64,000 bases of DNA from Candidatus Bathyarchaeota archaeon (GTDB taxonomy: Archaea; Thermoproteota; Bathyarchaeia; Bathyarchaeales; Bathycorpusculaceae): NCBI GenBank assembly GCA_018396675.1, contig JAGTQX010000010.1, positions 1 to 64,000 of the forward strand, read 5' to 3'. Made by a program: the position numbers and the translations under genes. The notes beneath the pieces were generated by a model. That model had not been told where the DNA came from. It was given only the letters and a program-made list of their open reading frames with translations, and made no database searches. Below, in pieces: positions 46,423 to 63,906 of the stretch (the first letter of the stretch is position 1; every line of letters begins with the position of its first letter).

Positions 46423-46501
46423 CGCAACCCACCACAAAACCAAAAATTTAACTCCCAAGCCGCCACCTTTATATTTGAACATTCCACGGAGCAAAAAAAT
46501 A

Positions 46502-47443
46502 ATGAAACATGCAATAGAAACAGTTGGACTAACAAAACGTTACGGCTCACTAACCGCAGTAAACAAGCTTGACTTAAAAGTTGAACACGGCACAGTCCAC
46601 GGTTTTCTTGGACCAAACGGCGCCGGCAAGACTACCACAATAAAAATTTTGATGGGGTTATTGAGACCTGATGAAGGCACAATCAAAATTCTTGATCGCG
46701 AAATACGCGGAGACACCCCAGAAGCTCGTCTAAAGGTGGGCTACATGCCCGAGCTTCCAAGGTTTCCAAAGCATTTGAAAGGATGGGAGCTGCTGGACAT
46801 TTATGGAAAAATGTATGGAATGACCACACAGCAGAGAGGAGAACAGATACCGAAACTTTTGGAAATGGTTGGGCTTAAAGGCAGAGAAAAAGACCTCATT
46901 GGAAAGTATAGTAAAGGAATGCAGCAGCGTTTAGGCATTGCACAAGCGCTGTTGAATGAGCCAGAGCTGGTCATTCTGGATGAGCCAAGCCTAGGCTTGG
47001 ACCCCGTTGGCATGGTTGAGGTTAGAGAGCTAGTAAGGGAAATCGCTAAAGAAGGCAGAACCGTCTTCTTGTCTTCACATTTGCTTTTTGAGGTTGAACA
47101 AGTCTGCACGCACATAACCATAATCCATAAAGGAGTAGCCCTAGCCTCAGACACTATTCAAAACATTTACAGCAAGCTTTCGGGATCATCAACGTTGCAT
47201 GTTGAGCTTGCAACCCCATCAGACATAATCGTTGAAGCCTTAAAGAAACTTTCATTCGTGTCAGACGTGACGCCTGATGGAAACATGTTAACAATAGAAT
47301 TGAAAACAAACGACGATGTTAGACCACAAATCTCTCAAGAGATAACGAAACTTGGAGGAGTAATAGTTTCAATGAACTTAAAGGGGCAGACGCTAGAAGA
47401 TGTTTTTATGCAGCTTATAACGAAAACTGGAGGAGAAAAGTGA
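46502..47443 (+). CDS. ABC transporter ATP-binding protein (ABC-2 system 2)
   Basis: About 313 residues from ATG 46502; the tracked start 46415 lies inside the preceding permease gene. Walker A GPNGAGKTT, signature YSKGMQQRLG, Walker B LVILDEPSLGLDP, His switch SSHLLFEVE. The ~80-residue C-terminal extension (DDVRPQISQEITKLGG) is typical of drug/antibiotic or lipid exporter ATPases. It is a paralog of the first ATPase with a second permease directly after it. Confidence 0.94.
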   Translation: MKHAIETVGLTKRYGSLTAVNKLDLKVEHGTVHGFLGPNGAGKTTTIKILMGLLRPDEGTIKILDREIRGDTPEARLKVGYMPELPRFPKHLKGWELLDIYGKMYGMTTQQRGEQIPKLLEMVGLKGREKDLIGKYSKGMQQRLGIAQALLNEPELVILDEPSLGLDPVGMVEVRELVREIAKEGRTVFLSSHLLFEVEQVCTHITIIHKGVALASDTIQNIYSKLSGSSTLHVELATPSDIIVEALKKLSFVSDVTPDGNMLTIELKTNDDVRPQISQEITKLGGVIVSMNLKGQTLEDVFMQLITKTGGEK

Positions 47444-47444
47444 G

Positions 47445-48383
47445 ATGCGTGAAAAAACTGGTGGAGACTGGAAAACTCGTTTTTTGGCTGTTGTAAAGTA
47501 TGAGCTTCTGTGGAATATTCGGAAGAAAAAATTCATAGGCGTAATAACCCTTGCTTTTACTCTTGCGACGCTCTCGTTGGTTTTGCCAGTTGCCCTAAGC
47601 AACATGAGTGGCGGAGAGCTTGAAGCGAATCCGGAATACGTTATCAGCACCGGAGCGGGAATTGGTGGACTTGGCATGTTCCTCTTCGCAGTTGTAATGG
47701 TCATGAACAGCATTTCAGGCGAGTTTGAAAGCGGCACAATTGTGCCACTCTTGACGAAGCCAGTTTCAAGGACGACTGTTTTTCTCGGCAAGCTTCTCGC
47801 AGCTTTTATAACGCTTCTTTCAGCCTACGCCAGCTTGTTCATCTATATGACAGTTGGAGGATGGATAATTTACGGACCGCAAAACGACCTCTACCTTCTG
47901 CCGCTCTCGCTGCTTGGAACAATCATCAGCACACTTGTGTGGATGGCGATAGTCCTAGCCATTGGAACAATTTCAAAAAGTTCTTTACTTGCCGCGCTTG
48001 GAACCTTCGGCATTTTTATGGCGTTAACCATAAGCTCTCCTATAATCTCGTTTTTCACAAACCAAGCTTGGATCATGCATTATCTGCCTGGAAGCGGCGC
48101 ATACGGCTTAATCCAAATTCAAACCGAAATTCAAGGAGTGCCAGTAATAAAAAGCATATCGGCATTAACTGGAACAGACAGCATTGCCGCCAACCTTGTC
48201 AATTATGCACGTTATCCATCGGCGAACGTGACCTTCTATAGTTTAAGCAGCAACCCGCTGGAGCCAATCACAGAACCCTTATCCTTTATACTTTTAAGAT
48301 CGCTTGCAGTGGCATCCGCTTACATTATAGGCTTCTTATTTGCCGCTTGGTACTTCTTCAAACGGACGCAAGTGCTCGAATAA
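47445..48383 (+). CDS. ABC-2 permease (system 2)
   Basis: 312 residues with six helices: FLAVVKYELLWNIRKKKFIGVITLAFTLATL at the start and MNSISGEFESGTIVPLLTKPVSRTTVFLGKLLAAF, the conserved ABC-2 family block. It starts one base after the ATPase stop. A PVIKSISALTG loop region lies outside. Substrate unknown. Confidence 0.9.
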   Translation: MREKTGGDWKTRFLAVVKYELLWNIRKKKFIGVITLAFTLATLSLVLPVALSNMSGGELEANPEYVISTGAGIGGLGMFLFAVVMVMNSISGEFESGTIVPLLTKPVSRTTVFLGKLLAAFITLLSAYASLFIYMTVGGWIIYGPQNDLYLLPLSLLGTIISTLVWMAIVLAIGTISKSSLLAALGTFGIFMALTISSPIISFFTNQAWIMHYLPGSGAYGLIQIQTEIQGVPVIKSISALTGTDSIAANLVNYARYPSANVTFYSLSSNPLEPITEPLSFILLRSLAVASAYIIGFLFAAWYFFKRTQVLE

Positions 48384-48391
48384 AAAAGGGG

Positions 48392-48847
48392 CTAGTATCT
48401 AATGCTGAGATAAAGCAGAACGAAAAGCGCCGCGAACGTGAATAGGTCCGGCAGAAGCGCGAATGGTCCTAAACCGAACAGCCTAAAGCCGAAGGCGCGT
48501 ATCACTATTGGGTTAGATGAGAGGGCGTACAAGAGCAGAATCACTGAGAATATTATGAGGCCAGCCGTGAATTCTGAACGTGTCTTTCTGTATATGTCAG
48601 CATAGATAATCAGCAGAAAAACCAGCAGAGTTATGTTGATTGTGGAAACCACTGTTTTAGCTATGTAGTAGAATTCTATGTCGCCTGGAATCTCAAACGG
48701 CGGGAATTCTGGGTGTTGCCATGGAAGACGTGGAGACCAAAAGGTTGAGGCTGCCCATATGGCGGCTAGTATGCCTACGGCTAAAAGAACTGGAATGAGT
48801 ATTAACAGTAGCAACGTTCGCGTTTTCTGGTTCATTTGCTGGTTCAT
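48392..48847 (-). CDS. Four-helix membrane protein beside a winged-helix regulator
   Basis: About 151 residues. ATG 48847 is chosen over the tracked 48877 because a perfect GGAGGT lies seven bases upstream. Four hydrophobic spans are visible (LLLLILIPVLLAVGILAAIW, TLLVFLLIIYADIY, LIIFSVILLLYALS, FTFAALFVLLYLSI). No family recognised. It is convergent with the ABC permease and co-directional with the HTH gene 17 bases upstream, suggesting a regulator-effector pair. Confidence 0.7.
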   Translation of the reverse strand: MNQQMNQKTRTLLLLILIPVLLAVGILAAIWAASTFWSPRLPWQHPEFPPFEIPGDIEFYYIAKTVVSTINITLLVFLLIIYADIYRKTRSEFTAGLIIFSVILLLYALSSNPIVIRAFGFRLFGLGPFALLPDLFTFAALFVLLYLSIRY

Positions 48848-48864
48848 TCGTTTTACCTCCTTTT

Positions 48865-49167
48865 CTACTTTTTCCAAATTTTCTTCAAAATTTCCTCGAA
48901 CAAAGCATAATTCTCCTCCATAACTGGAGATAGGAAATACGTTTTGCCATATCCTTCACCTGCAGAAACGATTAGCCTATTTTTTTCAAGGACCTCAAGA
49001 TGGTGCCTTATCGTTCTATAATCCAGTTTAAGCATGCCCGCCAGCTGATTCGCGTTCTGCGGAGCATCCTTTAACGCTTCAATTATTCTTGCCCGTGTTA
49101 AGCCGCCCCGTGTGCCAGCGATGAGCCAACCGAGCAAATACTTAAGTGGACGCGCGCTAGCAGACAT
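48865..49167 (-). CDS. Winged-helix (ArsR-like) transcriptional regulator
   Basis: 100 residues. RARIIEALKDAPQNANQLAGMLKLDYRTIRHHLEVLEKNRLI is a classic ArsR/MarR-type winged helix, followed by a wing (SAGEGYGKTYFLSP) and a C-terminal helix. No metal-binding Cys/His set is seen, so it probably senses something else. Likely controls the adjacent membrane protein and possibly the ABC cluster. Confidence 0.88.
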   Translation of the reverse strand: MSASARPLKYLLGWLIAGTRGGLTRARIIEALKDAPQNANQLAGMLKLDYRTIRHHLEVLEKNRLIVSAGEGYGKTYFLSPVMEENYALFEEILKKIWKK

Positions 49168-49310
49168 GCATACCGCCTAAACTGGCTAAACCTTATTCTG
49201 ATTTAATAATAAAAGTGTGTCTTCCCAAACTGTGGTTTATGGATTATGGCTGCATTCTGATATAATCTGGAAAAACCTTTACTAACAACCTTTTCGCGTT
49301 AATATCTGAT

Positions 49311-49372
49311 GGTTGGGGATGGGGAAACAATTTTTTCCTCTCCTTTCTCCCCCTTTTTGATCATCCCCAACC
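49311..49372. repeat. Long-range inverted repeat, possible structured leader RNA or terminator
   Basis: ggttggggatg (49311-49321) and catccccaacc (49362-49372) are perfect 11-base complements enclosing 40 bases. Inside, ggggaaa and tttctcccc can extend the stem. It lies in the 364-base gap between the winged-helix gene and the secreted-protein gene, 160 bases before the latter; the gap otherwise shows no gene. Function unknown. Confidence 0.55.
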
Positions 49373-49531
49373 GTTACCCAAAAACTGCGTTAGTAGGTTA
49401 CATTTTTGTTTAATAGTTGTAATTAAATGTGAATAGATTTGGTGTTAATTTTGAAAATTGCTTAATAAAACCACCATGCCTTGGGTATCAAGGTGCGCGC
49501 ACCCTTTCAATAAGTAATGGAGGTGATGTAA

Positions 49532-50053
49532 ATAGACAAAAGAAAAAGTTTGATTCTACTATCGGTTGTGATTGCAGCTGCAGTCATAAGCGGCATCGTT
49601 TTAAACGCATATTCTTCAGCTGTCAGCGCATCACCAGTTGGTGAAGGGACAGTGCAAGGATTACTTGCGCGGAACGGTTTAGGCCTTGAGGGTTTAAACA
49701 ATGGCAACTTTACAGCGGACATGTTTCCGTCAGCGCGTGGCGGAATGCGTGGTCATGGATGCGGCGGATTTTTAATTGAGGTCAGTGAGGAATTTAAGGA
49801 AAACGTGATCAGCATAGCTGAAAACGACAGTGATGTGCAGAGTTTGCTGAATGAAGGATACAATATCACACAAGTGAAACCTATGATAAAAATGGTGGTT
49901 GAGGGCGACGGTAGCGTCACAACAAAGGCAACAAGCGCAGTCTTGACGCTTGAGAAGGATACAACTGGGCGAGCAACCGTTTGGGTAGACCTAGAGCAGG
50001 GAAAAGTAACAAAAATAGCCATAATGACATTAACAGTCATTGACAAATCCTAA
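49532..50053 (+). CDS. Small membrane-anchored or secreted protein, function unknown
   Basis: About 173 residues. A strong GGAGGTGA at 49519-49526 sits five bases before an in-frame ATA (49532), which would give xDKRKSLILLSVVIAAAVIS: positive residues then a membrane helix, as expected for a signal anchor. The tracked TTG (49550) would lose the positive charges. The exported part has a Gly-rich GGMRGHGCGGFLIEV and a beta-rich C-terminus (ATVWVDLEQGKVTKIAIM). It lies upstream of a MacB-like ABC pair and an HtrA protease. Confidence 0.7.
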   Translation: MDKRKSLILLSVVIAAAVISGIVLNAYSSAVSASPVGEGTVQGLLARNGLGLEGLNNGNFTADMFPSARGGMRGHGCGGFLIEVSEEFKENVISIAENDSDVQSLLNEGYNITQVKPMIKMVVEGDGSVTTKATSAVLTLEKDTTGRATVWVDLEQGKVTKIAIMTLTVIDKS

Positions 50054-50233
50054 AAACCATTTAAGTAATGAAACACTGCTCTCTTTCCCCTATTTTTGGT
50101 TAATGTTATGGCTTTGATACCGCCTTCTCATATCATGCAGATTGGGAGTTAATTTTGGTCTAATTTTGAAAAATCCTAATATTTCACGCGACGTTCGAGT
50201 CAACAAACTTAGAATACGCCGAACGGTGAGAAC

Positions 50234-51613
50234 TTGGGTGCATTAACAAGAGCTGCTAAAAATATTTCGCGAAGAAAGATGCGCACATTACTGGTTGTAA
50301 TCGCTTTAGGTTTTTCAATAGCAATCATGATTTCCATACCCGCAGGAATAATGGCAAATCAGGAATCTATGCAGACGCTAAGTGAAAACCTCACCAGCAC
50401 AATCACTACAATGCAAGAGGAAATCAACAAAACAGCAACATTAATTGAATGCAGCACAACCCCAAATCAGGGTATGCAGACATTTAGGCCGGGTGGTGGC
50501 TTTTTCGGAGGTGTGAATGAAACTTTTATAAACGAATCCATAGTGGATGAAATATACTCTATTAACGTTAGTGGTGTTAGAGTCGTAAAGGATGTTATAC
50601 CTTCACTTGAGAAATCATCCAGCGAAAACATTACTGAAACGATAACTACACCATTTGGAAACCGCACAGTGTACAGGTCAGCTTATACCATAATTGGCGT
50701 CTGCCTCAACTCCTCAATCATCAGCAGCTACTCGATACTGCCAACAAACATAACAGCAGGAGAAAATCTTTCAGAAGGTGACAGCTGCTACGTTCTTATA
50801 AGTTCAAACTTGACGGAGTACTTTGAAGCAGGCGTCGGCGACACCATAACTATTAACGGCGAACTCTTCACGGTGAAGGGAATATTTGAATCCTCAAGCC
50901 AAACCCGAACCGTTTATATGAACATTTCCGACGCGCAGAGAATCACGGGTCTTACTGGAGAAATAAGCAAGTTATACGTGTATGTGGTGGATTCCTCCTA
51001 TGCAACTCAAGTGGCTGACGTTATAAAAGCGGCGTATCCAGAACTTTACGTGACAAGCTACCAAGACCGTTTAGAAAACCTTCAACAAATGCAGAGCATG
51101 TACACGCAAACTTTGAGCAACGCCGAATCCTCAATTGCTCAAGCGCAATCAACAGCAACTCAAGTAATAATCATAGCTGTTGCAGCCACAAGCCTAATTG
51201 TCCTATTCGTAATGCTGTACTCAGTTAGAGAAAGAACAAAAGAAATTGGAATCTTGAAAGCTATAGGTTTCAGCAACTGGAACGTCATGAGCCAATTCAT
51301 GCTTGAAGGTGTGCTTATAGGCCTAATAGGCGGAGCCACTGGAGTCTTAATTGGAAGCACAATTGCGCCGTTCTTGTCATCGTTTTTAATTCCTCAAATA
51401 AACTTGTTCGGTGGAACACAAAGACCGCAGGCTTCAGTGCAGATGCCATCAACAAACATTGTTGGGCTTCAAAGTTACACGACTGTTACACTGAGTCCAG
51501 AGCTTATTCTTCTGGCGCTTGGCGCGGCTGTTCTTCTCGGCGCAATTGGAAGTTTATACCCTGCTTGGAGAGCCTCTAAAATATCGCCAATCGAGGCGTT
51601 GAGGTATGAATGA
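50234..51613 (+). CDS. MacB/LolC-like ABC permease (FtsX family)
   Basis: 459 residues: N-terminal helix after NISRRKMRTLLVVIALGFSIAIMI, a large external domain with Asn-Ser/Thr glycosylation-like sites (50-310), then three helices around TKEIGILKAIGFSNWNVMSQFMLEG, ending AWRASKISPIEALRYE, the FtsX-superfamily signature. TTG 50234 has GGTGA five bases upstream. It overlaps the ATPase gene by 8 bases. These exporters transduce force to or move periplasmic-side substrates. Confidence 0.92.
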   Translation: MGALTRAAKNISRRKMRTLLVVIALGFSIAIMISIPAGIMANQESMQTLSENLTSTITTMQEEINKTATLIECSTTPNQGMQTFRPGGGFFGGVNETFINESIVDEIYSINVSGVRVVKDVIPSLEKSSSENITETITTPFGNRTVYRSAYTIIGVCLNSSIISSYSILPTNITAGENLSEGDSCYVLISSNLTEYFEAGVGDTITINGELFTVKGIFESSSQTRTVYMNISDAQRITGLTGEISKLYVYVVDSSYATQVADVIKAAYPELYVTSYQDRLENLQQMQSMYTQTLSNAESSIAQAQSTATQVIIIAVAATSLIVLFVMLYSVRERTKEIGILKAIGFSNWNVMSQFMLEGVLIGLIGGATGVLIGSTIAPFLSSFLIPQINLFGGTQRPQASVQMPSTNIVGLQSYTTVTLSPELILLALGAAVLLGAIGSLYPAWRASKISPIEALRYE

Positions 51614-52394
51614 GACTGTTTTGGAAACGGAGAAACTGGATAAAGTTTACAAGCTTGGAGGACGCAGCATCCGCGCACTTTCAGATGTCAACTTGCAAGT
51701 GAAGAAAGGCGACTTTGTCTCAATCATGGGGCCGTCTGGTTCTGGCAAAACAACACTGCTGAATATACTCGGCTGTCTCGACAAACCGACAAGTGGGAGA
51801 ATAATCCTTGACGACGTTGACGTTACCACTGTTCCAGAGAAAGAACTGTACAAGATTAGACGGTACAAGATTGGATTTGTCTTCCAGACTTTTAATTTAC
51901 TTCCGTACTTGAGCGCCATTGAGAATGTTGAACTTCCAATGGAGGGCACTGGAAAATCGAAAGAGGAAAAACTCAAAAGAGCTCGAGAATTGTTAAAGCT
52001 TGTTGGGTTGGCTGAAAGAGAAAACCATAAACCGCTCCGCTTAAGCGCAGGAGAACAACAAAGAGTCGCAATAGCCCGTGCCTTGGCTAACGGTCCATCC
52101 ATACTATTGGCAGACGAGCCTACTGGCAACCTAGACGCCAAAACAAAATACGAAATAGTTAGACTTTTGGGAAAATTGAACACGGAGCATGGAACAACAA
52201 TTGTGATGGTTACTCATGACAACGCCATCGCCTCACATGCGCGCAGAGTACTTTTTATCAACGATGGAAAGATGTTGTCGAAAGAAAAAATGGGCTTGTT
52301 CGCAAAAGAAAAATTAACGTGCCCAGCATGCGGCAGAGAGATTCAAATAACCCATGTTTTTTGTCCTCACTGTGGCAGAAAACTGTCAAATTAA
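51606..52394 (+). CDS. LolD/MacB-type ABC ATPase with C-terminal zinc ribbon
   Basis: 262 residues. Walker A GPSGSGKTT, signature LSAGEQQRVAIARAL, Walker B ILLADEPTGNLD, switch His TVMVTHD-like region. The end adds CPACGREIQITHVFCPHCG, a four-Cys zinc ribbon not found on standard LolD/MacB ATPases but common as a tail on archaeal proteins. Partner of the upstream permease. Confidence 0.92.
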   Translation: MNETVLETEKLDKVYKLGGRSIRALSDVNLQVKKGDFVSIMGPSGSGKTTLLNILGCLDKPTSGRIILDDVDVTTVPEKELYKIRRYKIGFVFQTFNLLPYLSAIENVELPMEGTGKSKEEKLKRARELLKLVGLAERENHKPLRLSAGEQQRVAIARALANGPSILLADEPTGNLDAKTKYEIVRLLGKLNTEHGTTIVMVTHDNAIASHARRVLFINDGKMLSKEKMGLFAKEKLTCPACGREIQITHVFCPHCGRKLSN

Positions 52395-52402
52395 AATGGT
52401 AG

Positions 52403-53632
52403 GTGAAAATTTTGGATTTTGTTCAAAAACCGAACGGAAAAAACCTTTCAACAATCCTTATCGTGATGATTGTGTTAATCAGTCTAGTTTCAGGTGGGCT
52501 GCTCGGATATTTAGCTGGCTATTTGACGTTTTCGAATAAAATCAACGATTTAAACAGCCAACTTTCAGATTTGCAGACGCAAGTGGCGAATCTCCAGCTA
52601 ACACAGACCATAATAAGCCAGAACAACACTTACATCCTCGGAGAAAATGCTTCACTATCAGAGCTTTACGAGAAAGTCAAAGAATCCGTTGTCGTCGTCC
52701 GCGGAGTAATAGTTCAGTACGACATTTTCCATCGCGCTCACTACACTCAAGTGCAAGGCTCAGGCTTCGTCTACAACCATACTGGACAAATGGTGATAAT
52801 TACAAACTACCACGTGATTGAAGACGCAATCAACATCACAGTCACGTTTATAGACGGCGACGGATACGCGGCAACGGTGCTTGGCTATGACCCCTACGCG
52901 GATTTGGCAGTGCTTTCAACAACGGCACCGCAAAGCGAACTGAAACCTCTCGAAATCATCAGTTCCTCAACATTAGAAGTAGGCGATATCGTAGTTGCAG
53001 TTGGTAACCCCTACGGGCTAGCGGGCTCAATGAGCATAGGCATAGTAAGCGCACTGGGCAGAACAATAACTGAAGAGGAAACCGGCGGATACCCAATCGC
53101 CGACATAATTCAAACGACGACGCCGCTTAACCCGGGCAACTCCGGCGGTCCACTGTTGAACCTTCAAGGCCAAGTTATCGGCATAACAACAGCCATAATA
53201 AGTGACTCGCAAGGTTTAGGCTTTGCAATTCCGTCGAACACCATACTGCGGGAAATCAGCCTACTTATAACATACGGTTATTATGACCAGCATCCTTGGC
53301 TTGGAATAAGCGGCGTAGACATGACCTACGAAATCGCACAAGCCATGAACACAAACGTAACTTACGGAGTACTCATAACACAAGTAATAAGCGATAGCCC
53401 AGCGGATAAAGCGGGATTAAAAGGCGGAACACAAACAGTGCTAGTTTCAGGAGAATACGTCACTATAGGCGGCGACGTAATAACAGCAATAAACGGCACA
53501 AAGATAACAAGCACTGATGAATTATCAGCGTACCTTGAGGAACACACCGCACCGGGGCAAACAATCACATTGACAATAGTTAGAAGCAACCAGGCGGTTA
53601 ATGTTTCTGTTGAGTTAGAAAAGCGGCCGTAG
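52403..53632 (+). CDS. HtrA/DegP-like membrane-anchored serine protease with PDZ domain
   Basis: 409 residues: N-terminal anchor (STILIVMIVLISLVSGGLLGYL), a coiled coil (DLNSQLSDLQTQVANLQ), a trypsin-like domain with the His (ITNYHVIED), Asp (DPYADLAVL) and Ser (NPGNSGGPL) triad, then one PDZ domain (GVLITQVISDSPADKAGL). It would degrade or refold misfolded envelope proteins. GTG 52403 or TTG 52412 (AGGTGA upstream) starts it. Nine bases after the ABC ATPase, so probably one operon. Confidence 0.94.
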   Translation: MKILDFVQKPNGKNLSTILIVMIVLISLVSGGLLGYLAGYLTFSNKINDLNSQLSDLQTQVANLQLTQTIISQNNTYILGENASLSELYEKVKESVVVVRGVIVQYDIFHRAHYTQVQGSGFVYNHTGQMVIITNYHVIEDAINITVTFIDGDGYAATVLGYDPYADLAVLSTTAPQSELKPLEIISSSTLEVGDIVVAVGNPYGLAGSMSIGIVSALGRTITEEETGGYPIADIIQTTTPLNPGNSGGPLLNLQGQVIGITTAIISDSQGLGFAIPSNTILREISLLITYGYYDQHPWLGISGVDMTYEIAQAMNTNVTYGVLITQVISDSPADKAGLKGGTQTVLVSGEYVTIGGDVITAINGTKITSTDELSAYLEEHTAPGQTITLTIVRSNQAVNVSVELEKRP

Positions 53633-54643: not shown

Positions 54644-54698
54644 ATGTAAATCATGAATCCGTATAGTAAATCAGCAGTCTTCAAGGATGTTTGCAAAT

Positions 54699-55478
54699 AT
54701 GGCAAAATCAGAAAACGTCAAAAAAGAAGAACAAGCAACAGTGGCTGAATCAAACGAGGATAAACCGGAAAAACAGGAAATCGAAAAGCTAAAATTCAAT
54801 GTAGAAAAACTGTCTGAAGAGTTAAACACTGCAGTAGCAGAGCTTAAAAGATCAATAATTGATATACGGTCAGCAGTAAGCGAAATTGAAAATCCATTCA
54901 ACCTTTTACGTGTAATATCAAGCGAAAAAGACTTGAAAAAATTGAATGGTGAAAGACTCCCGCCTGGAGTTAAATCCCTAGTACTTGGAAAACCTGAAGA
55001 AAAAACAGAAGAAAGAACAGAAACATTACCAAAACCCACTGCGCCTTTAATGCCTGCACCAGTTTTTGCTCCTGACAAAGAAAAGGAAGCTTTTGAGGCG
55101 AAGGAAACCGCGGCGGCAACAACAGAAGAAGAGAAACAGCGCCCGAAAAGCGAGTTACCTCCATCTGGAACTGTTTACTTGGACTGGGTTTGGTCGCTTC
55201 TCGATTTAGGATTCTCGCCTGACGACATAAAACAACTTTCAGAATCTTATGAACGGTTAGGCTTCTTGCCAGAAGGCTCCAACGAACAAGTTTATTCCCT
55301 AGCAATAGCGGCTGAAAAAGCAAAATCTAAGGGACTCACAAGAAGCAAACTTTTGCTTAACATGTATAAAGCATCAGCAATTTCTGGGATGTGCATAGGT
55401 TTAGAGGACGTGAAACGGTTGATTTCAATAGCTGAAGGACGAGTTAGAGAGGCAAAAAATGCGAAAAGGGTTGCCTAA
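54699..55478 (+). CDS. Archaellum accessory protein, FlaD/E-like
   Basis: About 259 residues from ATG 54699 (AAGGATG eight bases upstream); ATG 54687 is the alternative. The N-terminal charged coiled coil contains DIRSAVSEIENPFNLL, a FlaC/D motif. A Pro/Glu/Ala linker leads to a C-terminal domain TVYLDWVWSLLDLGFSPDDIKQLSESYERLGFL, like the FlaD/E 'WL..L...G...l...l.yY..lGW' domain. In euryarchaea this protein docks the archaellum motor to chemotaxis components; none is encoded nearby. Its stop overlaps the arlG ATG. Confidence 0.75.
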   Translation: MAKSENVKKEEQATVAESNEDKPEKQEIEKLKFNVEKLSEELNTAVAELKRSIIDIRSAVSEIENPFNLLRVISSEKDLKKLNGERLPPGVKSLVLGKPEEKTEERTETLPKPTAPLMPAPVFAPDKEKEAFEAKETAAATTEEEKQRPKSELPPSGTVYLDWVWSLLDLGFSPDDIKQLSESYERLGFLPEGSNEQVYSLAIAAEKAKSKGLTRSKLLLNMYKASAISGMCIGLEDVKRLISIAEGRVREAKNAKRVA

Positions 55479-55978
55479 TGGGATTTTCTCTAACGCTATC
55501 GCACATCATAATGGTTATTTCCTCTGTTTGTTTAGCGAGCGCCTTCTCCGTATATGCGTTCTACACGGGAAACCTTGTTCAAAACGAATTGGCGCAAAAT
55601 GTTAACGACTACAAGAGAATAGTCAGCATGCAGCTGGAGATAGTCTACGCAACGATAGACAACTCTACAAACCCGCCGCACTTTGTAATCTACGCCAAAA
55701 ACATCGGATACCTTTCACTTACAGACTTCACCTTCTTGGACGTTTACGTCGGCGAATACGGAAAAGCACAATTGTTCCTTTACAACGCGGCGGCAGAGGC
55801 TGGAAGTGGACAATTTAAAGTGACCACAGCCAATGGAGACCTCGTATGGGAGCCGCGTGAAACAGTCACAATACGCGCTTATCCATTAAACAATGTGAAC
55901 GGAACAATTTTCGAAGCAAAGCTAGTGCCTTCAAAGGGAATAGGCAGCAGTTACCTCTTTCCAGCGCCGCCGTCTTGA
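55478..55978 (+). CDS. arlG: Archaellum stator-like protein ArlG (FlaG)
   Basis: 166 residues: one N-terminal membrane helix (LSHIIMVISSVCLASAFSVYAFYTG) followed by a beta-sandwich external domain. The gene order D/E-G-F-H-I-J points to ArlG, which with ArlF anchors the motor to the S-layer. The GFxLTLSHII start resembles ArlF/G. Distinguishing G from F rests on order, so the label could be swapped with the next gene. Confidence 0.8.
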   Translation: MGFSLTLSHIIMVISSVCLASAFSVYAFYTGNLVQNELAQNVNDYKRIVSMQLEIVYATIDNSTNPPHFVIYAKNIGYLSLTDFTFLDVYVGEYGKAQLFLYNAAAEAGSGQFKVTTANGDLVWEPRETVTIRAYPLNNVNGTIFEAKLVPSKGIGSSYLFPAPPS

Positions 55979-55997
55979 GGAGAGGAGGATTCAAGGC

Positions 55998-56522
55998 ATG
56001 GGGTTTTCGGTTACAATAACATCATCCATCATTCTAATAGCTATGTTCGCAATATCAACCTCTTTTCTGATAACGCTTTTCCAAGGATTAAAGGAGATAT
56101 CTTACATTGCTGAAAATTACGTTAGCCGTAACAGAGAAAAACTGGATGTTGCCTTGCAGTTGGAAGTGTATCCGGTCAACGCTACTTTATGCAACATAAC
56201 GGTAAGAAACACGGGGTATAACGTTATTTTCCTAGAAGACCAGTCAGGCTTCAAATGGAACACTATACTGCTTTCTTATGGCAATGAGTCTTTCTGGGTT
56301 TCCTACTCCATTGAGGATTATGAAGTTTTAGAAGTTAAGGTTTCAGGAACAAGCTATACCTTTACGCCAAACAGCCACAACTACATAGAGTCTGGAGAGG
56401 AAGCACTAATCTTTTTTAACATTCCAAGCGGAGCGCCAGAAATTCCCGTGAACGGGCTGGTTTCAGTTGTTTTTGTTACGCATTATGGAGTTGCAGCCAA
56501 AGCGGAGGCGGTTAGAGAATAA
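55998..56522 (+). CDS. arlF: Archaellum stator-like protein ArlF (FlaF)
   Basis: 174 residues, N-terminal helix (SIILIAMFAISTSFLITLFQG) then a beta-sandwich domain with NITVRNTGYNVIF and SYSIEDYEVLEV. This arrangement fits ArlF, which binds S-layer protein and restrains the stator. A purine-rich gaggagaggagg lies upstream. Its stop overlaps the arlH start. Confidence 0.8.
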   Translation: MGFSVTITSSIILIAMFAISTSFLITLFQGLKEISYIAENYVSRNREKLDVALQLEVYPVNATLCNITVRNTGYNVIFLEDQSGFKWNTILLSYGNESFWVSYSIEDYEVLEVKVSGTSYTFTPNSHNYIESGEEALIFFNIPSGAPEIPVNGLVSVVFVTHYGVAAKAEAVRE

Positions 56523-57223
56523 TGAAAGTTGTAAGTTTAGGAATTACGGAACTTGACAGAGACCTTGGCGGCGGAATTCCTCATCCAAGCCTCATATCTA
56601 TTGAAGGCGATTATGGTTCTGGAAAAACCATTTTTGTTCAGCAAATAGCAAGCGCAATGCTCAACACTGGATTACGAGTCTGCATCATAACAAGCGAAGC
56701 AACGGTTAAGGAGTATTTGTCAATGATGCGTTCCGTGAAACTCGACGCAGACGGCTATTACCTTTCAGGACAGCTTAACATTTACCCGCTACACATTGAA
56801 GGCGGAAGATGGAACGACTTCCTAAGCTCATTCTTTCTAAAAGTAACCTCAAACTTTCTCGAATTAAAAAAGCAATACTATGATGCCGTGATAATCGACA
56901 GTCTAAGCGTCTTAACAGTGAACACTCCAAGATCTGAGTTCCTCACTTTCGTTACAAGAATGAAAAACCTGGTGTCAGACGACAGGACGGTTGTTGCCAC
57001 TTTTCACCCAGAATTTCTTTCAGAAGACACAATCATGAAGTTGAGAGCCAGCTCAGATGTTTACCTCGTGCTGAAAAATGCTAGTATCTCCGGAATCGAC
57101 GTCAAAGTGCTGAGAGTTGTAAAGCTTTGGGGAGTAAGCGGCGAAAGAAAAAGCGCGATAACTCTTGAAATTAACCCGCAAATCGGCTTAAGAGTCATGC
57201 CGTTAAGCGGAGTAAAAGTGTAG
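56522..57223 (+). CDS. arlH: Archaellum ATP-binding protein ArlH (FlaH)
   Basis: 233 residues, RecA/KaiC-like: ELDRDLGGGIPHPSLISIEGDYGSGKTIFVQQI with the Walker A, VIIDSLSVLT as Walker B and an intact P-loop lysine. ArlH forms a ring on ArlI and acts as a nucleotide-dependent switch for assembly or rotation. TAATG junction with arlF. Confidence 0.93.
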   Translation: MKVVSLGITELDRDLGGGIPHPSLISIEGDYGSGKTIFVQQIASAMLNTGLRVCIITSEATVKEYLSMMRSVKLDADGYYLSGQLNIYPLHIEGGRWNDFLSSFFLKVTSNFLELKKQYYDAVIIDSLSVLTVNTPRSEFLTFVTRMKNLVSDDRTVVATFHPEFLSEDTIMKLRASSDVYLVLKNASISGIDVKVLRVVKLWGVSGERKSAITLEINPQIGLRVMPLSGVKV

Positions 57224-57232
57224 GAGGAAACA

Positions 57233-58918
57233 TTGTTGGCGAGTAAGCTAAAGCTGAACTTGAACCAAAAACTTCCAAGCTTCAAGCTGTCGTTGTTCAA
57301 GAAAGAAGAAGAGGAGAAAAAAGAAGATGAAATATGGCCATTCAAGCGGGAAATATGTGAAACGTTAGAAGAAGCATTAACCGCGCATCCATACTTGAAG
57401 ACGTATCTAGATTCGTTGCCAGACAAGCCCAGATACACTTTAAACATTGACTTGGAAGAGTACAGCAAAGAAACCAACATTCTATACCCGCTGGGCTTAG
57501 GAATATACACGCATATCGATATTGGCGGAGAAATTGGAAGGTACAATCTGATAGAGCCTGAAAAACCGGACAGTAAACTTTTAGACGAACTTGAAGCCGC
57601 TGTCGCAATGCTTGTTGGAGACAAGGAGTATAAGGAAAACAAAGAAAACGTTTTAGCTTCACTTTTTAGACAAGCCATCAAAAAGAAAATGGTTAAAATC
57701 CCCAAAGACAGAGACGAAGGCGCAATACTTTACCATTTTCTGCGGGAAAAAATTGGACACGGCTTTCTAGACGGTTTCTTGGCTGACCCATGGCTGGAAG
57801 ACGTGAGTATCCCAGGAGCAGGCAAAGTTTTCGTTTATCACAAGATGTTTGGCCATCTTGAAACCAACGTTGATGTGACAAAGGAAGAGATTAACAGGTT
57901 GCTGCGGAATATATCAGAGAGATATGGTAAAGTCTTAAGCTACACACATCCGATAATAGATATACACTTGCCTGACGGTTCCAGGTTCAACATAGTTTAC
58001 GGCGAAGACATAAGCCTCAGAGGAAGCAATTTTACGATTAGAAAGTTTCCAAAAGAGCCAATTTCGGTGGCGCAGTTAATCCGTTGGAAAACTTTTTCGC
58101 CGGAGTTAGCCGCATATCTCTGGATGCTTTTCGAAGTTGGAGTTTCAGCAATGGTTTGTGGAGAAACAGCTTCAGGAAAAACCACGACTCTAAACGCTCT
58201 CACCGCTTTCATAAACTCTGACTCAAAAATAATAAGCATAGAAGAAACTCCAGAAGTGAACCTGTTCCATAAGAACTGGATTAGAGAAGTAACGCGGCTG
58301 CATACTGGTGTTCCAGTGACAATGTTTGACCTTCTAAAAGCCGCTTTGAGGCAGAGGCCGGACTACATAATTGTAGGTGAAATTAGAGGCGAAGAAGGCA
58401 GAGTGGCCTTTCAAGCTATTGAAACGGGGCACCCGGTTTTGTCTACAATGCACGCTGGAACATTAAGTCAGCTTTTCCAGAGGCTTACTTCGCACCCCAT
58501 CGATGTTCCCAAAACGCACATTGATGGTTTAAACTTGGCTGTTTTCCAAGCGAGAATGGAACGAGGAAAACGGTTCATACGGCGAGTCACGTCAATCAAC
58601 GAGATAATAGGATACGAGTCTGATGAGGGCAGGCTTAATTATTTGCCAACTTTCATTTACGACGCGGACTTGGACAAAATAAGGTTTATGGGTTCAAGCT
58701 TTCATCTGGAGTCAAAAGTTCTCACATTTAGGGGATGGGGCAAAGAAAGATTAAGGGAGCTCTACGACGAGCTGAAAGCCAGAGCAGAAATCCTCACTTT
58801 CCTATCCGAAAACTTCCCAACATACACGGATGTTTGGAAAACATGCATTGCTGTCCGGGAAAGAGGTGTCTGGGAAGTTTATCGTAAAGTCAAAGAGATG
58901 AAGATTCCTTGGGAGTGA
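57233..58918 (+). CDS. arlI: Archaellum motor ATPase ArlI (FlaI)
   Basis: 561 residues, type II/IV secretion ATPase family: Walker A GETASGKTT, Asp box, Walker B IIVGEIRGEEGR and the His box THAGT-like STMHAGTLSQLF. N-terminal ~150 residues are ArlI-specific and acidic. It powers both assembly and rotation. Starts at TTG 57233 with AGGAGG five bases upstream. Confidence 0.95.
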   Translation: MLASKLKLNLNQKLPSFKLSLFKKEEEEKKEDEIWPFKREICETLEEALTAHPYLKTYLDSLPDKPRYTLNIDLEEYSKETNILYPLGLGIYTHIDIGGEIGRYNLIEPEKPDSKLLDELEAAVAMLVGDKEYKENKENVLASLFRQAIKKKMVKIPKDRDEGAILYHFLREKIGHGFLDGFLADPWLEDVSIPGAGKVFVYHKMFGHLETNVDVTKEEINRLLRNISERYGKVLSYTHPIIDIHLPDGSRFNIVYGEDISLRGSNFTIRKFPKEPISVAQLIRWKTFSPELAAYLWMLFEVGVSAMVCGETASGKTTTLNALTAFINSDSKIISIEETPEVNLFHKNWIREVTRLHTGVPVTMFDLLKAALRQRPDYIIVGEIRGEEGRVAFQAIETGHPVLSTMHAGTLSQLFQRLTSHPIDVPKTHIDGLNLAVFQARMERGKRFIRRVTSINEIIGYESDEGRLNYLPTFIYDADLDKIRFMGSSFHLESKVLTFRGWGKERLRELYDELKARAEILTFLSENFPTYTDVWKTCIAVRERGVWEVYRKVKEMKIPWE

Positions 58919-60495
58919 AACCGATAAAAATATCCAGAGATTCCGTTGTTGCTGTTCTACTGCTGGTTCCGTCGCTTCTTTTTGCACTCTACTACTTGTC
59001 TGCGGGCAAAATGCTTGAGGCCATCATCATTTTACCAATAAGCATCGGCGTTTTAATGTTTCTTAAATACATGTCACGTAAACGTTACCCAAAAAAGGTG
59101 GATTTCATGTTAACGACTGTTGTCTTCCACCTGTACGGCTTGTCTCTTGGAGAAACTTCGCCAGATGACCTTGTCAACACAATCGCAGAAAACAGGGAAT
59201 ACGGCTTTTACAGCAGAATTTTTCAAAAAATTCGCAGTTTAGCCAAAGACTTCGGATACGGCATTACAAAGGCTACAGCTCACGTTGCAGACATCGTAAA
59301 GCCACCGTTAAAGGACATTCTTGTGCGTTTTACAAACGTGTTTTCAAGCGTGGAGCCTAAAGGCTACTTGGAGATGGAGTCTTCAATGCTGATTGAAGAA
59401 TATTCAGGTTATTACACGCGTGCGCTTGAAACCTTGAAAACTCTTGGAGGAATCTTTACGTCGTTCCAAAGCGTAACCGTGTTTCTAATAATGACCATAG
59501 TGATTATGGCGATTTTCATGATTGACCCAAGCGCAATAGCTTTCGGCTATTTTATCGCTGCGTTCGCCGTCATAATGATGTACGTTCTTTTCAGGGCGTC
59601 ATCTCCAAGAGAAAACCTTGTTTACATAGGGAAGTATCCGCCAAAACTTTATGTGGCCATGAGATGGAGCCTAATCGCTACTGGAGCCTCCTCAACATTG
59701 CTTGCAGTTCTTCTATACTTTTCTAAAGGTCCCGCCTTCGCTTTTATGGCGTTAGGTTTAGGCATGATTATGCCTGGAATTTTTGGGTACATGCTTGAAA
59801 AGCATGTTAACAAGATTGACAGAAATTATCCGACTTTTTTGAAGGCTTTGGGTGAAAACTTGGCTTCAACATCAGATTTGAGGGCTGCTTTTTCTTATAT
59901 AGTTCAGATGGAACTAGGCCCTTTTAAGAAGCTTGTTAAAGAGGCTTTGGCAAGGTTGAGGCTTGGGATAGGGCATGAGCAAACTTTTGAAACGCTTTCT
60001 TCTGAGGCTGCTTCCTATCAAGTGCATATTAGTAACAGGATATTTTTGGATTCTATGAGTAGAGGAGCGAATCCTCTTGAGATAGGCAACGCTTTGGGAA
60101 ATCGTGTTGTCAAGTTTATCGAGTTTCGGAAATCTAGGGATGTAACTGCGAAGGGTTTCCAAATGATAATAATGGTTATGCAGCCGCTCACCGTTGTCTT
60201 GTTGGTTGTTGTGCAAGTGCTTGCAGAGTTTATGTCCCAGTACCTAGTTAATCTGCCATATTTTGGATTTAACGCTATTCCGATACCAGTAATTGAAACT
60301 GGGAACATAATTCTAGTTTTCATAATGGCTGTTGTTAACGCTTTGACAATCAAAGAGGTTTCAGCTGGTTACTGGGGAACATTTTTCCTCAACTTGGGGA
60401 TTTTGTTGATTGTCAGCGGTATAACGTGGATGGCTGCTGGAGTCTTTATTGAAATGGCTTTAGGCTCGATGCCGAGCATCGAGTTACCTGTGTAA
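58909..60495 (+). CDS. arlJ: Archaellum membrane platform protein ArlJ (FlaJ)
   Basis: 528 residues, polytopic inner-membrane protein of the GspF/TadB superfamily. Two conserved cytosolic modules (LETLKTLGGIFTSFQSVTVFL...; LGENLASTSDLRAAFSYIVQ...GANPLEIGNALG) separate the helices. It forms the membrane core on which ArlI sits. TTG/GTG start overlaps arlI by 10 bases. Confidence 0.94.
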   Translation: MGVKPIKISRDSVVAVLLLVPSLLFALYYLSAGKMLEAIIILPISIGVLMFLKYMSRKRYPKKVDFMLTTVVFHLYGLSLGETSPDDLVNTIAENREYGFYSRIFQKIRSLAKDFGYGITKATAHVADIVKPPLKDILVRFTNVFSSVEPKGYLEMESSMLIEEYSGYYTRALETLKTLGGIFTSFQSVTVFLIMTIVIMAIFMIDPSAIAFGYFIAAFAVIMMYVLFRASSPRENLVYIGKYPPKLYVAMRWSLIATGASSTLLAVLLYFSKGPAFAFMALGLGMIMPGIFGYMLEKHVNKIDRNYPTFLKALGENLASTSDLRAAFSYIVQMELGPFKKLVKEALARLRLGIGHEQTFETLSSEAASYQVHISNRIFLDSMSRGANPLEIGNALGNRVVKFIEFRKSRDVTAKGFQMIIMVMQPLTVVLLVVVQVLAEFMSQYLVNLPYFGFNAIPIPVIETGNIILVFIMAVVNALTIKEVSAGYWGTFFLNLGILLIVSGITWMAAGVFIEMALGSMPSIELPV

Positions 60496-60603
60496 TATTC
60501 CATTTTTGCAGATGCTTGTTGTCGCTTGACAACTGTGATGGTGGCTATTTACTTGTTGTATGTAGTGTGGATTCATATTCGGAGTTTGTATTCTGATTCG
60601 CGA

Positions 60604-60613
60604 TTTTAAATAA
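60604..60613 (+). promoter_or_regulatory. TATA-like box of the first archaellin pair
   Basis: ttttaaataa, about 85 bases before the archaellin ATG and just after the tattctgattc motif; supports a separate archaellin transcript. Confidence 0.4.
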
Positions 60614-60692
60614 CGCTTTATTATGTCTTAAGACTCGCTATAGTGTTGGTGGAGGTAGTGGTGGAGTAAGTATAAGAGTAGGTGGTGGAAAT

Positions 60693-61574
60693 ATGGGAGA
60701 AAAACCAAACATCAAATGCCAAAAATGCGGGTACGAATGGCACACACGGTCAAAGCTTAAAATGGTGACATGCCCTTCATGTAACCAAAAAATTCCAAAC
60801 GTTGCATTGTACAAACGCCGCCGTTTAGTAAAGGCGCTTGTGCATCAGAAACGTGCAATTATAGGTTTAGAAGCCGCAATAGTTCTTATAGCCTTCGTCA
60901 TAATTGCCGCAGCCTTCAGCTTCATGGTCGTCAACCAAGGCTTGTACGCCACGGAAAGGGGCAAAGTCGTAATTCAAGAAGGTTTAAAACAAGCGAGCAC
61001 ACCCTTGACGATAGACGGAACAACGTTTGTCAGAACGACTCCTGACGGAAAAGCAGTAAACGTCATAATAATTCCAGTAAAAGCCTTCGGAGTGAAATTC
61101 GTAGCCGTTGGGAGAAACCAAACAGTCATAGTCCTACGCGTTGGCGAAAGAGCGTGGGCAAACGCCTATTTGGGCGTGTTATACACGGGCTATCCGAATG
61201 GAACATATTATTATACTGATGATGAGACGTACGACCCAACTGGACAGGAATTCGACGACTTTGTAGGTTTCAGATACGCCAATCAAACCACTGTAGGAGA
61301 AGAACGCAACGTTTACGTAAACGGAACATACGCCAGCGGATATAGTGAGGGGTTGTTCACTGGAGCGGTTCTTGCTATTGCTTATAGCAACGGCGACGAA
61401 GCATTAGATACGAATGAGAAAGGCTTCCTAATAATAACGCTATCGGAGGACGCTGCAGCTCCTGCCAGATCACAGATAAACATTGAGATAAGGCTTGAGA
61501 AGAGTGCTACGCTTTCAGTTGAGATTACGATACCGGAGTCAATGCCGAAGAACACGTATGTGCCAATATTCTAG
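60693..61574 (+). CDS. arlB: Archaellin (type A) with an N-terminal zinc ribbon before the signal peptide
   Basis: 293 residues. Residues 9-30 form a zinc ribbon (CQKC...CPSC). Then comes the class III signal peptide region KALVHQKRAIIG|LEAAIVLIAFVIIAAAFSFMV; PibD/FlaK should cleave after Gly58 and the hydrophobic helix assembles into the filament core. The outer domain (residues ~115-293) is larger than in the sister type A archaellin and Thr/Asn-rich with many N-x-S/T sites. A GTG at codon 50 (60840), with AAAGG five bases upstream, could yield a product with a normal short leader. ATG 60693 has a clear GGTGG. First gene of an A-B pair. Confidence 0.9.
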   Translation: MGEKPNIKCQKCGYEWHTRSKLKMVTCPSCNQKIPNVALYKRRRLVKALVHQKRAIIGLEAAIVLIAFVIIAAAFSFMVVNQGLYATERGKVVIQEGLKQASTPLTIDGTTFVRTTPDGKAVNVIIIPVKAFGVKFVAVGRNQTVIVLRVGERAWANAYLGVLYTGYPNGTYYYTDDETYDPTGQEFDDFVGFRYANQTTVGEERNVYVNGTYASGYSEGLFTGAVLAIAYSNGDEALDTNEKGFLIITLSEDAAAPARSQINIEIRLEKSATLSVEITIPESMPKNTYVPIF

Positions 61575-61586
61575 GAGGAGAAAGTC

Positions 61587-62210
61587 ATGCGGAGAATAAC
61601 GAGAAACAAAAGGGGTATTGTTGGCATCGAAGCCGCCATCGTCCTCATAGCCTTTATTATAATTGCTGCAGCGCTCAGCTATGTAGTTATCAACATGGGT
61701 TTCTATACAACGCAAAAGACGAAAGAAACAATGCAGGGAGGCCTCGACGAGTCTTTAACCGCCCTGCAACTTGATGGAATAGTGACTGCAAAAACCGACA
61801 GTTCCGGGCACATAGAATATTTAGCCATTCCAGTGAAACTTTCTGCTGGTCGTGCTGCTATAGACCTTGGTGAAAACGCGGTTGTGGTTTCGGTATATCT
61901 TCAAAACGCAACGCTTATGAACGTGTATCAGGGCGCTACTCCGGCGAATGAAACAACTTGGGATGCTCTGATCAGTGCTCTTGGTTTAACTAGCGAAGGC
62001 GCAAAGTTCGCCATATATAATGGGAATAATAACACGGTGATTGAGTCAACCGAAAAAGCGTTTCTGATAATCTGCCTCGACGAGCAACATAGGATTAGTG
62101 ACTACGAAACTGTAAAGATTGAGGTCAGAGGTGCAAAGGGCGCCGCTTTGACGGTTGTACGAACTGCTCCAGGCGGCATGCTTCCAGATTCGTTTGTAGA
62201 CCTGGGTTAG
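61587..62210 (+). CDS. arlB: Archaellin (type B), first copy
   Basis: 207 residues. Short leader MRRITRNKRGIVG|IEAAIVLIAFIIIAAALSYVV, then INMGFYTTQKTKETMQGGL. N-glycosylation-like sites (NAT, NET, NNT) lie in the outer domain; it ends APGGMLPDSFVDLG like the other type B copy. GGAGGAG precedes the ATG. It sits 12 bases after the type A gene, so the pair is probably co-translated. Confidence 0.92.
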   Translation: MRRITRNKRGIVGIEAAIVLIAFIIIAAALSYVVINMGFYTTQKTKETMQGGLDESLTALQLDGIVTAKTDSSGHIEYLAIPVKLSAGRAAIDLGENAVVVSVYLQNATLMNVYQGATPANETTWDALISALGLTSEGAKFAIYNGNNNTVIESTEKAFLIICLDEQHRISDYETVKIEVRGAKGAALTVVRTAPGGMLPDSFVDLG

Positions 62211-62278
62211 CCCCGCTTTCCCATTTTTATGCTGCGTCATTGCCGTCGGTGGTTTTCGTTGTTTTTCTTTGTCGGATT

Positions 62279-62293
62279 TCGAATTGAATTCGA
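62279..62293. repeat. Palindrome tcgaatt-g-aattcga
   Basis: Seven-base perfect arms around one base, in the 193-base gap between the two archaellin pairs and about 70 bases before the TATA-like box of the second pair. Possible operator. Confidence 0.45.
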
Positions 62294-62357
62294 TATTTTA
62301 TTCATTTTTTGAATCAAAATTAGCAATTTTACCAATCTAAATTATCATTTCATAACT

Positions 62358-62368
62358 CTTAATATAAG
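62358..62368 (+). promoter_or_regulatory. TATA-like box of the second archaellin pair
   Basis: cttaatataag, about 40 bases before the ATG at 62404; good archaeal TATA shape. Indicates that the second pair can be transcribed on its own. Confidence 0.45.
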
Positions 62369-62403
62369 AACAAGCATAACTCAAAAAGCACCAAAAAAGG
62401 AAG

Positions 62404-63045
62404 ATGAAAAAAATGAACTGGAAGAAAACTTTGATGAAACTAGTAAAACAGAAACGTGCCATGGTGGGTCTAGAAGCTGCAATAATCCTCATAGCCTTCG
62501 TCATCATCGCAGGCGCCTTCAGCTTCATGGTCATCAACCAAGGCTTATTTGCAACAGAACGAGGCAAAACAGTAGTTCAAGACAGCCTAAGACAAGCAAG
62601 CACACCCTTGATAGTGGACGGAAGCATATACCTAAATGCTGACTCATCAACAACTATTAACGCTATTGTCATCCCATTAAGGGCTTACGGTGTTAAGTAT
62701 GTGGCGCTCGGAGAAGACGCAACCTCTGTTTCCCTTCAAGTGGCTGGAAGCGCTTGGCCAAACGTATATGAGGGCATAAACGGAACATTTACTACGAGCG
62801 ACAATTTCGGCGACCTTGTTGCCAACGTAACTACTGGTCACGCGGCTCTGTTCATCCAAAACAGTAATGGAGACGACTCTTTGGATTCCAACGAGAAAGG
62901 CTTTCTTGTTATATCTTTGAGTGCTTCTGCAAATGCTAGAGACCACATAGTTGTTGAAATCAAGCCAGAGAAAGCTGCGCCGTTGACAATTGACTTCTAC
63001 GTGCCCGAATCTTTGCCAAGCGGCTGGATAACGGTGGCTGGCTAA
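62404..63045 (+). CDS. arlB: Archaellin (type A), second copy
   Basis: 213 residues. Leader MKKMNWKKTLMKLVKQKRAMVG|LEAAIILIAFVIIAGAFSFMV (about 22 residues, no zinc ribbon), then INQGLFATERGKTVVQDSLRQASTP as in the first type A copy. The outer domain is shorter than that of the zinc-ribbon copy. It ends LPSGWITVAG. ATG 62404 or 62413 can start it. Confidence 0.92.
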   Translation: MKKMNWKKTLMKLVKQKRAMVGLEAAIILIAFVIIAGAFSFMVINQGLFATERGKTVVQDSLRQASTPLIVDGSIYLNADSSTTINAIVIPLRAYGVKYVALGEDATSVSLQVAGSAWPNVYEGINGTFTTSDNFGDLVANVTTGHAALFIQNSNGDDSLDSNEKGFLVISLSASANARDHIVVEIKPEKAAPLTIDFYVPESLPSGWITVAG

Positions 63046-63046
63046 A

Positions 63047-63691
63047 ATGTTCGCAAAAAAACTGTTTAAAAACCGGAAAGGCATTGTCGGTGTAGAAGCC
63101 GCCATCGTTCTCATAGCCTTCCTGATAATCGCCGCGGCATTAAGCTACGTGGTCATAAACATGGGCTTCTACACAACACAAAAAACAAAAGAGACAATGC
63201 AGACAGGCCTCGATGAATCATTAACAGCTCTACAACTGGACGGCGTGGTCACAGCGAGGACCAACGACACCTCACCTCACATATTGTATATCCTTGTCCC
63301 AGCGAAGCTCTCAGCGGGTAGAGGCGCAGTAGACCTAAGCACAAGCTCAGTCGTAGTGTCGGTGTATTTGCCAAACGCTACTTTAATGAATATATATGAA
63401 GGCTCAAATCCATCAACGGATGATGTGGCATGGGACGATTTGGTTAGCACTTTGTCGCTGAGTGATAAACAAGCCAAGTTCGCAATCTATAATGACGACG
63501 GCGACACTGTGCTGGAATCGAACGAAAAGGCTTTCCTGCTGATACGCCTAGACTCAACAGACGCACAAAGCATGCTAAGCGAATACCAAACAATAAAAAT
63601 TGAAGTCAGAACTGCAAAAGGCGCCGCACTAACAGTAATACGCACAGCCCCAGGCGGCTTAGCGGCAAACTCTTTCGTCGACCTAGGCTAA
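63047..63691 (+). CDS. arlB: Archaellin (type B), second copy
   Basis: 214 residues. Leader MFAKKLFKNRKGIVG|VEAAIVLIAFLIIAAALSYVV, then INMGFYTTQKTKETMQTGLDESL, nearly identical to the first type B through the core helix; the outer domain differs. It ends APGGLAANSFVDLG. Its ATG lies one base after the type A stop. Confidence 0.92.
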   Translation: MFAKKLFKNRKGIVGVEAAIVLIAFLIIAAALSYVVINMGFYTTQKTKETMQTGLDESLTALQLDGVVTARTNDTSPHILYILVPAKLSAGRGAVDLSTSSVVVSVYLPNATLMNIYEGSNPSTDDVAWDDLVSTLSLSDKQAKFAIYNDDGDTVLESNEKAFLLIRLDSTDAQSMLSEYQTIKIEVRTAKGAALTVIRTAPGGLAANSFVDLG

Positions 63692-63795: not shown

Positions 63796-63906
63796 CGCCG
63801 GGGGTGGGATTTGAACCCACGCGGCCCAAAAGGGCCACAGGCTTTTAGGCGCTTCCAAGTTTTTTCGTCTCCAGGCCTGCTCCCTACCTGACTAGGAGAC
63901 CCCGGC
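63796..63906 (-). tRNA. tRNA-Ser (anticodon GGA) with a 25-base intron
   Basis: Minus strand: acceptor gccgggg/ccccggc, discriminator G, long variable arm gtggccc-tttt-gggccgc, T-loop ttcaaat. The anticodon stem caggc/gcctg encloses 32 bases; removal of 25 leaves a seven-base loop with GGA, the canonical position 37/38 insertion. CCA not encoded. A TATA-like cataaaaaat lies about 28 bases upstream of the 5' end. Confidence 0.88.

Follow-up and report, generated by a model that had tools for sequence, protein, structure and literature searches.

Duplicated A-B archaellin pairs and a predicted zinc-ribbon leader in an archaellum cluster of a Candidatus Bathyarchaeota archaeon

Introduction

In Methanocaldococcus villosus, two distinct archaellins, ArlB1 and ArlB2, alternate in the archaellum (PMC8821640; PDB 7ofq). 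Archaellins and type IV prepilins are made with class III signal peptides, which combine basic residues, G or A at position -1, G at +3 and a hydrophobic helix. The leader ahead of the cut is usually short, 6-12 aa in archaellins (PMC4187195, PMC4307647); type IV pilins have 6-26 aa, and those of the type IVb class about 15-30 aa (PMC4471445). The leaders of type IV prepilins do not leave the cytoplasm, and it is there that they are cut (PMC4471445, PMC10191384). Archaea also possess C(P)XCG zinc-finger micro-proteins such as HVO_0758 and HVO_2753, and deletion of the genes for these two affects swarming (PMC10716476).

Here we describe an archaellum cluster in a stretch of 64,000 nucleotides from a Candidatus Bathyarchaeota archaeon (contig JAGTQX010000010.1, positions 1 to 64,000; hereafter the window). 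The cluster encodes two types of archaellin, each present twice, and its first archaellin is preceded by a conserved pre-sequence with the pattern of a zinc ribbon.

Results

The archaellum cluster and its four archaellins

The archaellum cluster occupies 54687-63691 on the + strand, where an unassigned first gene is followed by arlG-, arlF-, arlH-, arlI- and arlJ-like genes and then by the archaellins A1, B1, A2 and B2:

54687..55478, + strand, first gene of the cluster, perhaps arlC/D/E-like by position; no family match
55478..55978, + strand, arlG-like gene, assigned by gene order; PF01917 39.2 bits
55998..56522, + strand, arlF-like gene; NF052590 (ArlF) 26.7 bits, below cutoff
56522..57223, + strand, arlH; NF004723 (FlaH) 219.7 bits, over cutoff
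57233..58918, + strand, arlI motor/assembly ATPase; NF058587 528 bits, slightly below the cutoff of 550, with T2SSE over cutoff
58909..60495, + strand, arlJ membrane protein; NF004705 297 bits, below the cutoff of 400
60693..61574, + strand, A1, prearchaellin with a zinc-ribbon pre-sequence, 293 aa; PF01917 54.7 bits, frame open in 14 genomes
61587..62210, + strand, B1 archaellin, 207 aa, 10-residue leader; PF01917 94.5 bits
62413..63045, + strand, A2 archaellin without the ribbon, 16-residue leader; PF01917 67.0 bits, KMNWKK start in relatives
63047..63691, + strand, B2 archaellin, 214 aa, 12-residue leader; PF01917 89.5 bits

Among the motor genes arlH alone exceeds a curated NCBIfam cutoff, and the remaining motor assignments are best matches taken together with gene order. 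The archaellins are thus encoded beside arl motor genes, with arlH over its cutoff and with the arlI and arlJ equivalog models as best matches below theirs. All four archaellins exceed the curated PF01917 cutoff (29.5 bits) as well as that of the class III signal model TIGR02537, and the five places at which PF01917 matches the genome are these four genes and the arlG-like gene. They were read from consecutive + strand open reading frames (60693-61574, 61587-62210, 62404-63045 and 63047-63691), of which the third was shortened from 62404 to its second ATG at 62413, the start position in relatives.

The archaellins of the window lie at the 3' end of the cluster, after arlJ; archaellins are placed first in the arl operon in PMC8821640. 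Upstream of the cluster, 43940-53632 holds ABC transporter genes and an HtrA-like protease, as judged from translations only. On the - strand at 63796-63906, an Rfam tRNA match (111 bases, 44 bits) is long enough that it could hold an intron; ARAGORN with bacterial settings reported no tRNA at this place.

Two archaellin types in two pairs

In a preliminary description of this DNA, two core-helix types were said to alternate as A-B-A-B, each A directly preceding its own B, and the second pair was said to have its own TATA-like box. All three statements are borne out. The core helix reads NQGL(Y/F)ATERGK in A1 and A2 and NMGFYTTQKTKE in B1 and B2, and A1 is 53% identical to A2 and 34-36% identical to B1 and B2. 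Only 12 bases separate A1 from the start of B1, and a single base separates A2 from that of B2. The TATA-like box CTTAATATAAG (62358-62368) is kept in all relatives in which the region upstream of A2 was compared, and in family f1 every pair has its own conserved promoter-like box:

60617..60633, + strand, promoter-like box of the first pair (TTTATTATGTCTTAAGA); aligned form TTTATTAAATCTTAATA kept upstream of A1 in 14 genomes, putative promoter
60643..60690, + strand, GTR-repeat, G-rich 5' leader of A1; similar form in 14 genomes
62348..62368, + strand, promoter-like box of the second pair (TTTCATAACTCTTAATATAAG); TTCATAANNCTTAATATAA-like box kept in relatives with A2, putative promoter

The window contains one instance of a 17-base pattern of the G-rich 5' leader where 0.1 would be expected, a count reached in 9 of 100 shuffles.

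The pairing of types was further resolved by phylogeny. When 68 archaellins of the order were placed in one tree, a single branch (100/100) split all A rows from all B rows. For the four archaellins of the window, a check set beforehand gave A1 with A2 and B1 with B2 at 100/100, and the grouping of A1 with B1 and A2 with B2 was not seen. In a tree extended by rows from the rest of the phylum, A-B pairs from f25, a family of the same class, and from f30, which belongs to another class, placed their first gene in the A clade (100/99) and their second in the B clade (99/96); single-type archaellins of other lineages fell outside both clades. Hence both lineages and the A-then-B order appear older than the class, although the extended tree was rooted at its midpoint and several outgroup rows sit on long branches, which makes the age of the split less certain than the split itself.

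The A-B-A-B arrangement is present in several genera of f1 and in three f9 genomes (G138, G140 and G141), in one of which (G140) the fourth archaellin gene is split between contigs. The f9 genomes and the f1 genomes have their A copies on separate branches, so the pair was duplicated on at least two occasions, in f1 and in f9. That the whole pair was duplicated independently in f9, that A-B pairs occur in another class too, and that each pair in f1 has its own promoter-like box all speak for A and B as functionally linked partners. The proposal that they form a unit is upheld to this extent; the unit is not obligate, since B is absent or broken in some genomes.

B is dispensable to the archaellum locus

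The two types do not accompany each other wherever the system occurs. Three genomes of 95-99% completeness (G072, G085 and G086) contain A1 and A2 and lack B, two others (G143 and G149) show A only in the PF01917 table and in the reading of the A gene's surroundings, and B1 is broken in G028. Thus a genome can have an archaellum locus without B. In G023 (L040, 1900-3444) the ribbon-bearing A1 is followed directly by an archaellin of the B2 clade, an order that deletion of B1 and A2 could have produced; strict pairing is therefore not the rule either. Taken together, the B losses and the G023 arrangement suggest A as the core subunit, with B in an accessory role. On one contig (L121, G097) a third B-type archaellin starts from about 9535, before the contig end.

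A conserved zinc-ribbon leader on A1

The A1 pre-sequence, which is absent from the preliminary description, places 55 residues before the class III site in the window and contains the pattern CxxC-x14-CxxC. This element, KPNIKCQKCGYEWHTRSKLKMVTCPSCNQK, has two CxxC pairs 14 residues apart:

60693..60857, + strand, whole A1 leader, 55 residues, to the predicted class III site KRA|IIG; site residues present in 14 of 14, cleavage predicted
60702..60791, + strand, zinc ribbon of the A1 leader, residues 4-33; cysteines invariant in 14 leaders, pN/pS 0.145 (for comparison between regions), AlphaFold2 pLDDT 78-89

Leaders of 52-56 residues with this ribbon precede A1 in 13 f1 genomes and one f6 genome; wherever a relative sharing this A1 is named, it is a Candidatus Bathyarchaeota MAG. 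None of the other archaellins read carries such a leader. Compared with the 6-12 aa that is typical of archaellins, though not defining for them, the leaders of B1 (10) and B2 (12) are within range, while those of A2 (16) and of A1 in all 14 genomes lie outside it. The ribbon-bearing A1 proteins form one clade in the order tree (100/99) and have a single origin; since the f6 copy branches among those of f1, transfer or a mixed MAG may account for it.

Across the 14 leaders the four cysteines and 13 other positions are invariant, and the leader is basic, with a net charge of +9 to +13. The pN/pS values of A1 were obtained by simple counting, and pS lies near 0.7, which is close to saturation; they therefore serve for comparison between regions and not as rates (ribbon 0.145, linker 0.456, core helix 0.070, head 0.280). 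The ribbon is under purifying selection. A head that diverges more than the core helix is usual for archaellins in general, and reading the locus gave nothing in support of antigenic switching, which had been considered earlier.

AlphaFold2 modelled the leader alone with four short strands, pLDDT reaching 78-89 over the ribbon (in blocks). The invariant cysteines and this four-strand model agree with the C(P)XCG pattern of two CxxC pairs in a small beta-rich domain, and the leader probably binds zinc. The full-length A1 model (mean pLDDT 55.9) is usable only for the order of ribbon, helix and beta-rich head. Searches of the ribbon against Pfam, NCBIfam and PHROGs returned weak sub-threshold matches to many zinc-ribbon families and none over a curated cutoff, and the best Foldseek match of the leader had an E of 0.19.

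The class III site of A1 has A or G at -1 and G at +3 in all 14 proteins, 13 of which fit the FlaFind motif, and one A24 prepilin-peptidase homologue is present in 13 of the 14 ribbon genomes. Considering also that prepilin leaders are cytoplasmic, the ribbon is probably cytoplasmic and removed.

Small free-standing ribbon proteins with the same CxxC pattern exist in the class (L152, L153 and L155). The leader is thus most simply, and most likely, explained by the fusion of a gene of this kind to an archaellin. An orphan ribbon 66% identical to the leader was found in bin1106 (L060, 8983-9133), apparently the same genome as G127. PF01917 has no match in the bin1106 genome, hence this ribbon stands without an archaellin, and no in-frame start codon precedes it. 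It is probably a relic of the fused gene; an assembly error is possible. The GTR-repeat, G-rich 5' leader is found before this relic too.

Discussion

With a probability of roughly 0.5, we read the locus as inherited A-B partner pairs that were duplicated, with A1 as a special ribbon-bearing precursor. A and B would be ancient paralogous archaellins passed on as an A-then-B pair, and duplication of this pair would have given A1-B1-A2-B2 with one promoter per pair, the two pairs being expressed separately. A and B most likely act as partner subunits of one filament, A as the core and B as the dispensable one; judged from the genes, a mixed A/B filament as in M. villosus is a fair prediction. 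Ahead of the class III signal of A1, the gene of a small zinc-ribbon protein would have been fused in frame. As the A1 helix inserts into the membrane, the ribbon would fold in the cytoplasm; cutting at KRA|IIG by prepilin peptidase would then free it. We prefer a role as a cytoplasmic docking or timing domain, through which A1 would be specially handled, probably as an early subunit; docking, timing or motility feedback may each be served. A conserved module on the removable part of A1 points to a control step that has no description in the searched literature.

Joint use of A and B has a competitor that we consider possible, at clearly less than even odds: A1-B1 and A2-B2, or A and B, might build separate filaments or zones that differ in time or place (a hook-like base against the filament, or different environments), with no alternating lattice. 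In its favour, archaellins of the hook and ecoparalogue kinds have been described (PMC4187195, PMC8821640), a conserved promoter box stands before each of the two pairs, and some genomes lost B while keeping A. However, the close spacing within pairs (12 bases and 1 base) and joint duplication on at least two occasions fit joint use better.

For the ribbon, it is rather doubtful that processing of A1 frees a cytoplasmic zinc-ribbon regulator acting on motility gene expression or translation. Such a role would suit a ribbon more constrained than its linker and a basic leader, and C(P)XCG proteins of Haloferax volcanii are required for swarming and motility gene expression (PMC10716476), which is an analogy and not evidence; but no homology to those proteins was shown, no target or stable fragment is known, and the orphan ribbon occurs only as a probable relic. 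The broader idea that one gene supplies both a filament subunit and a cytoplasmic regulator, the freed ribbon controlling motility gene expression or assembly, is in our view similarly unlikely. Conservation of the ribbon as a folded domain could also mean that A1 stays uncut and is anchored by it at the filament base, yet the class III site is kept in 14 of 14 A1 proteins and removal of the signal peptide was essential for archaella assembly in published work (PMC4187195), which renders this quite improbable. We give still less credence to the ribbon being a separate or untranslated frame, with A1 starting downstream behind an ordinary short leader. TTG, GTG or ATG does occur inside some linkers, that of the window included, but 6 of the 14 linkers contain none of them. 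The linker frame is open in all 14 with length differences of whole codons, and the ribbon evolves as protein. A downstream A1 start was rejected because no internal start codon is common to all.

Returning to the reading of duplicated partner pairs, the likeness to M. villosus (PMC8821640; PDB 7ofq) is that of two distinct archaellins from one cluster with proposed joint use. B1 weakly matches both chains (3.6e-6 and 0.0016) and A1 matches neither (E up to 0.01), a pattern in which no one-to-one relation of subunits was found; here, moreover, B is sometimes absent and mixing is predicted from genes. Should A and B indeed be partners, the mixed archaellum would count as a long-standing design of this archaeal phylum instead of a curiosity confined to one methanogen. 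The solved archaellin closest to A1 (94 bits) is 7txi (Probable flagellin 1), which is also the closest to B1 (153 bits); its match to A1 starts at residue 52 and hence does not cover the ribbon. With HVO_0758 and HVO_2753 (PMC10716476) the ribbon shares a small domain with CxxC pairs. Those proteins are free-standing and show no significant homology to it, whereas the ribbon here is fused to a prearchaellin. A1 itself has the basic residues, the G or A at -1, the G at +3 and the hydrophobic helix of class III signal peptides, and differs from the usual forms by a leader of 52-56 aa with a zinc ribbon. A folded, conserved leader of this kind would mean that a class III leader need not be just a short tag, and it turns the function of the cut-off piece into a directly testable question.
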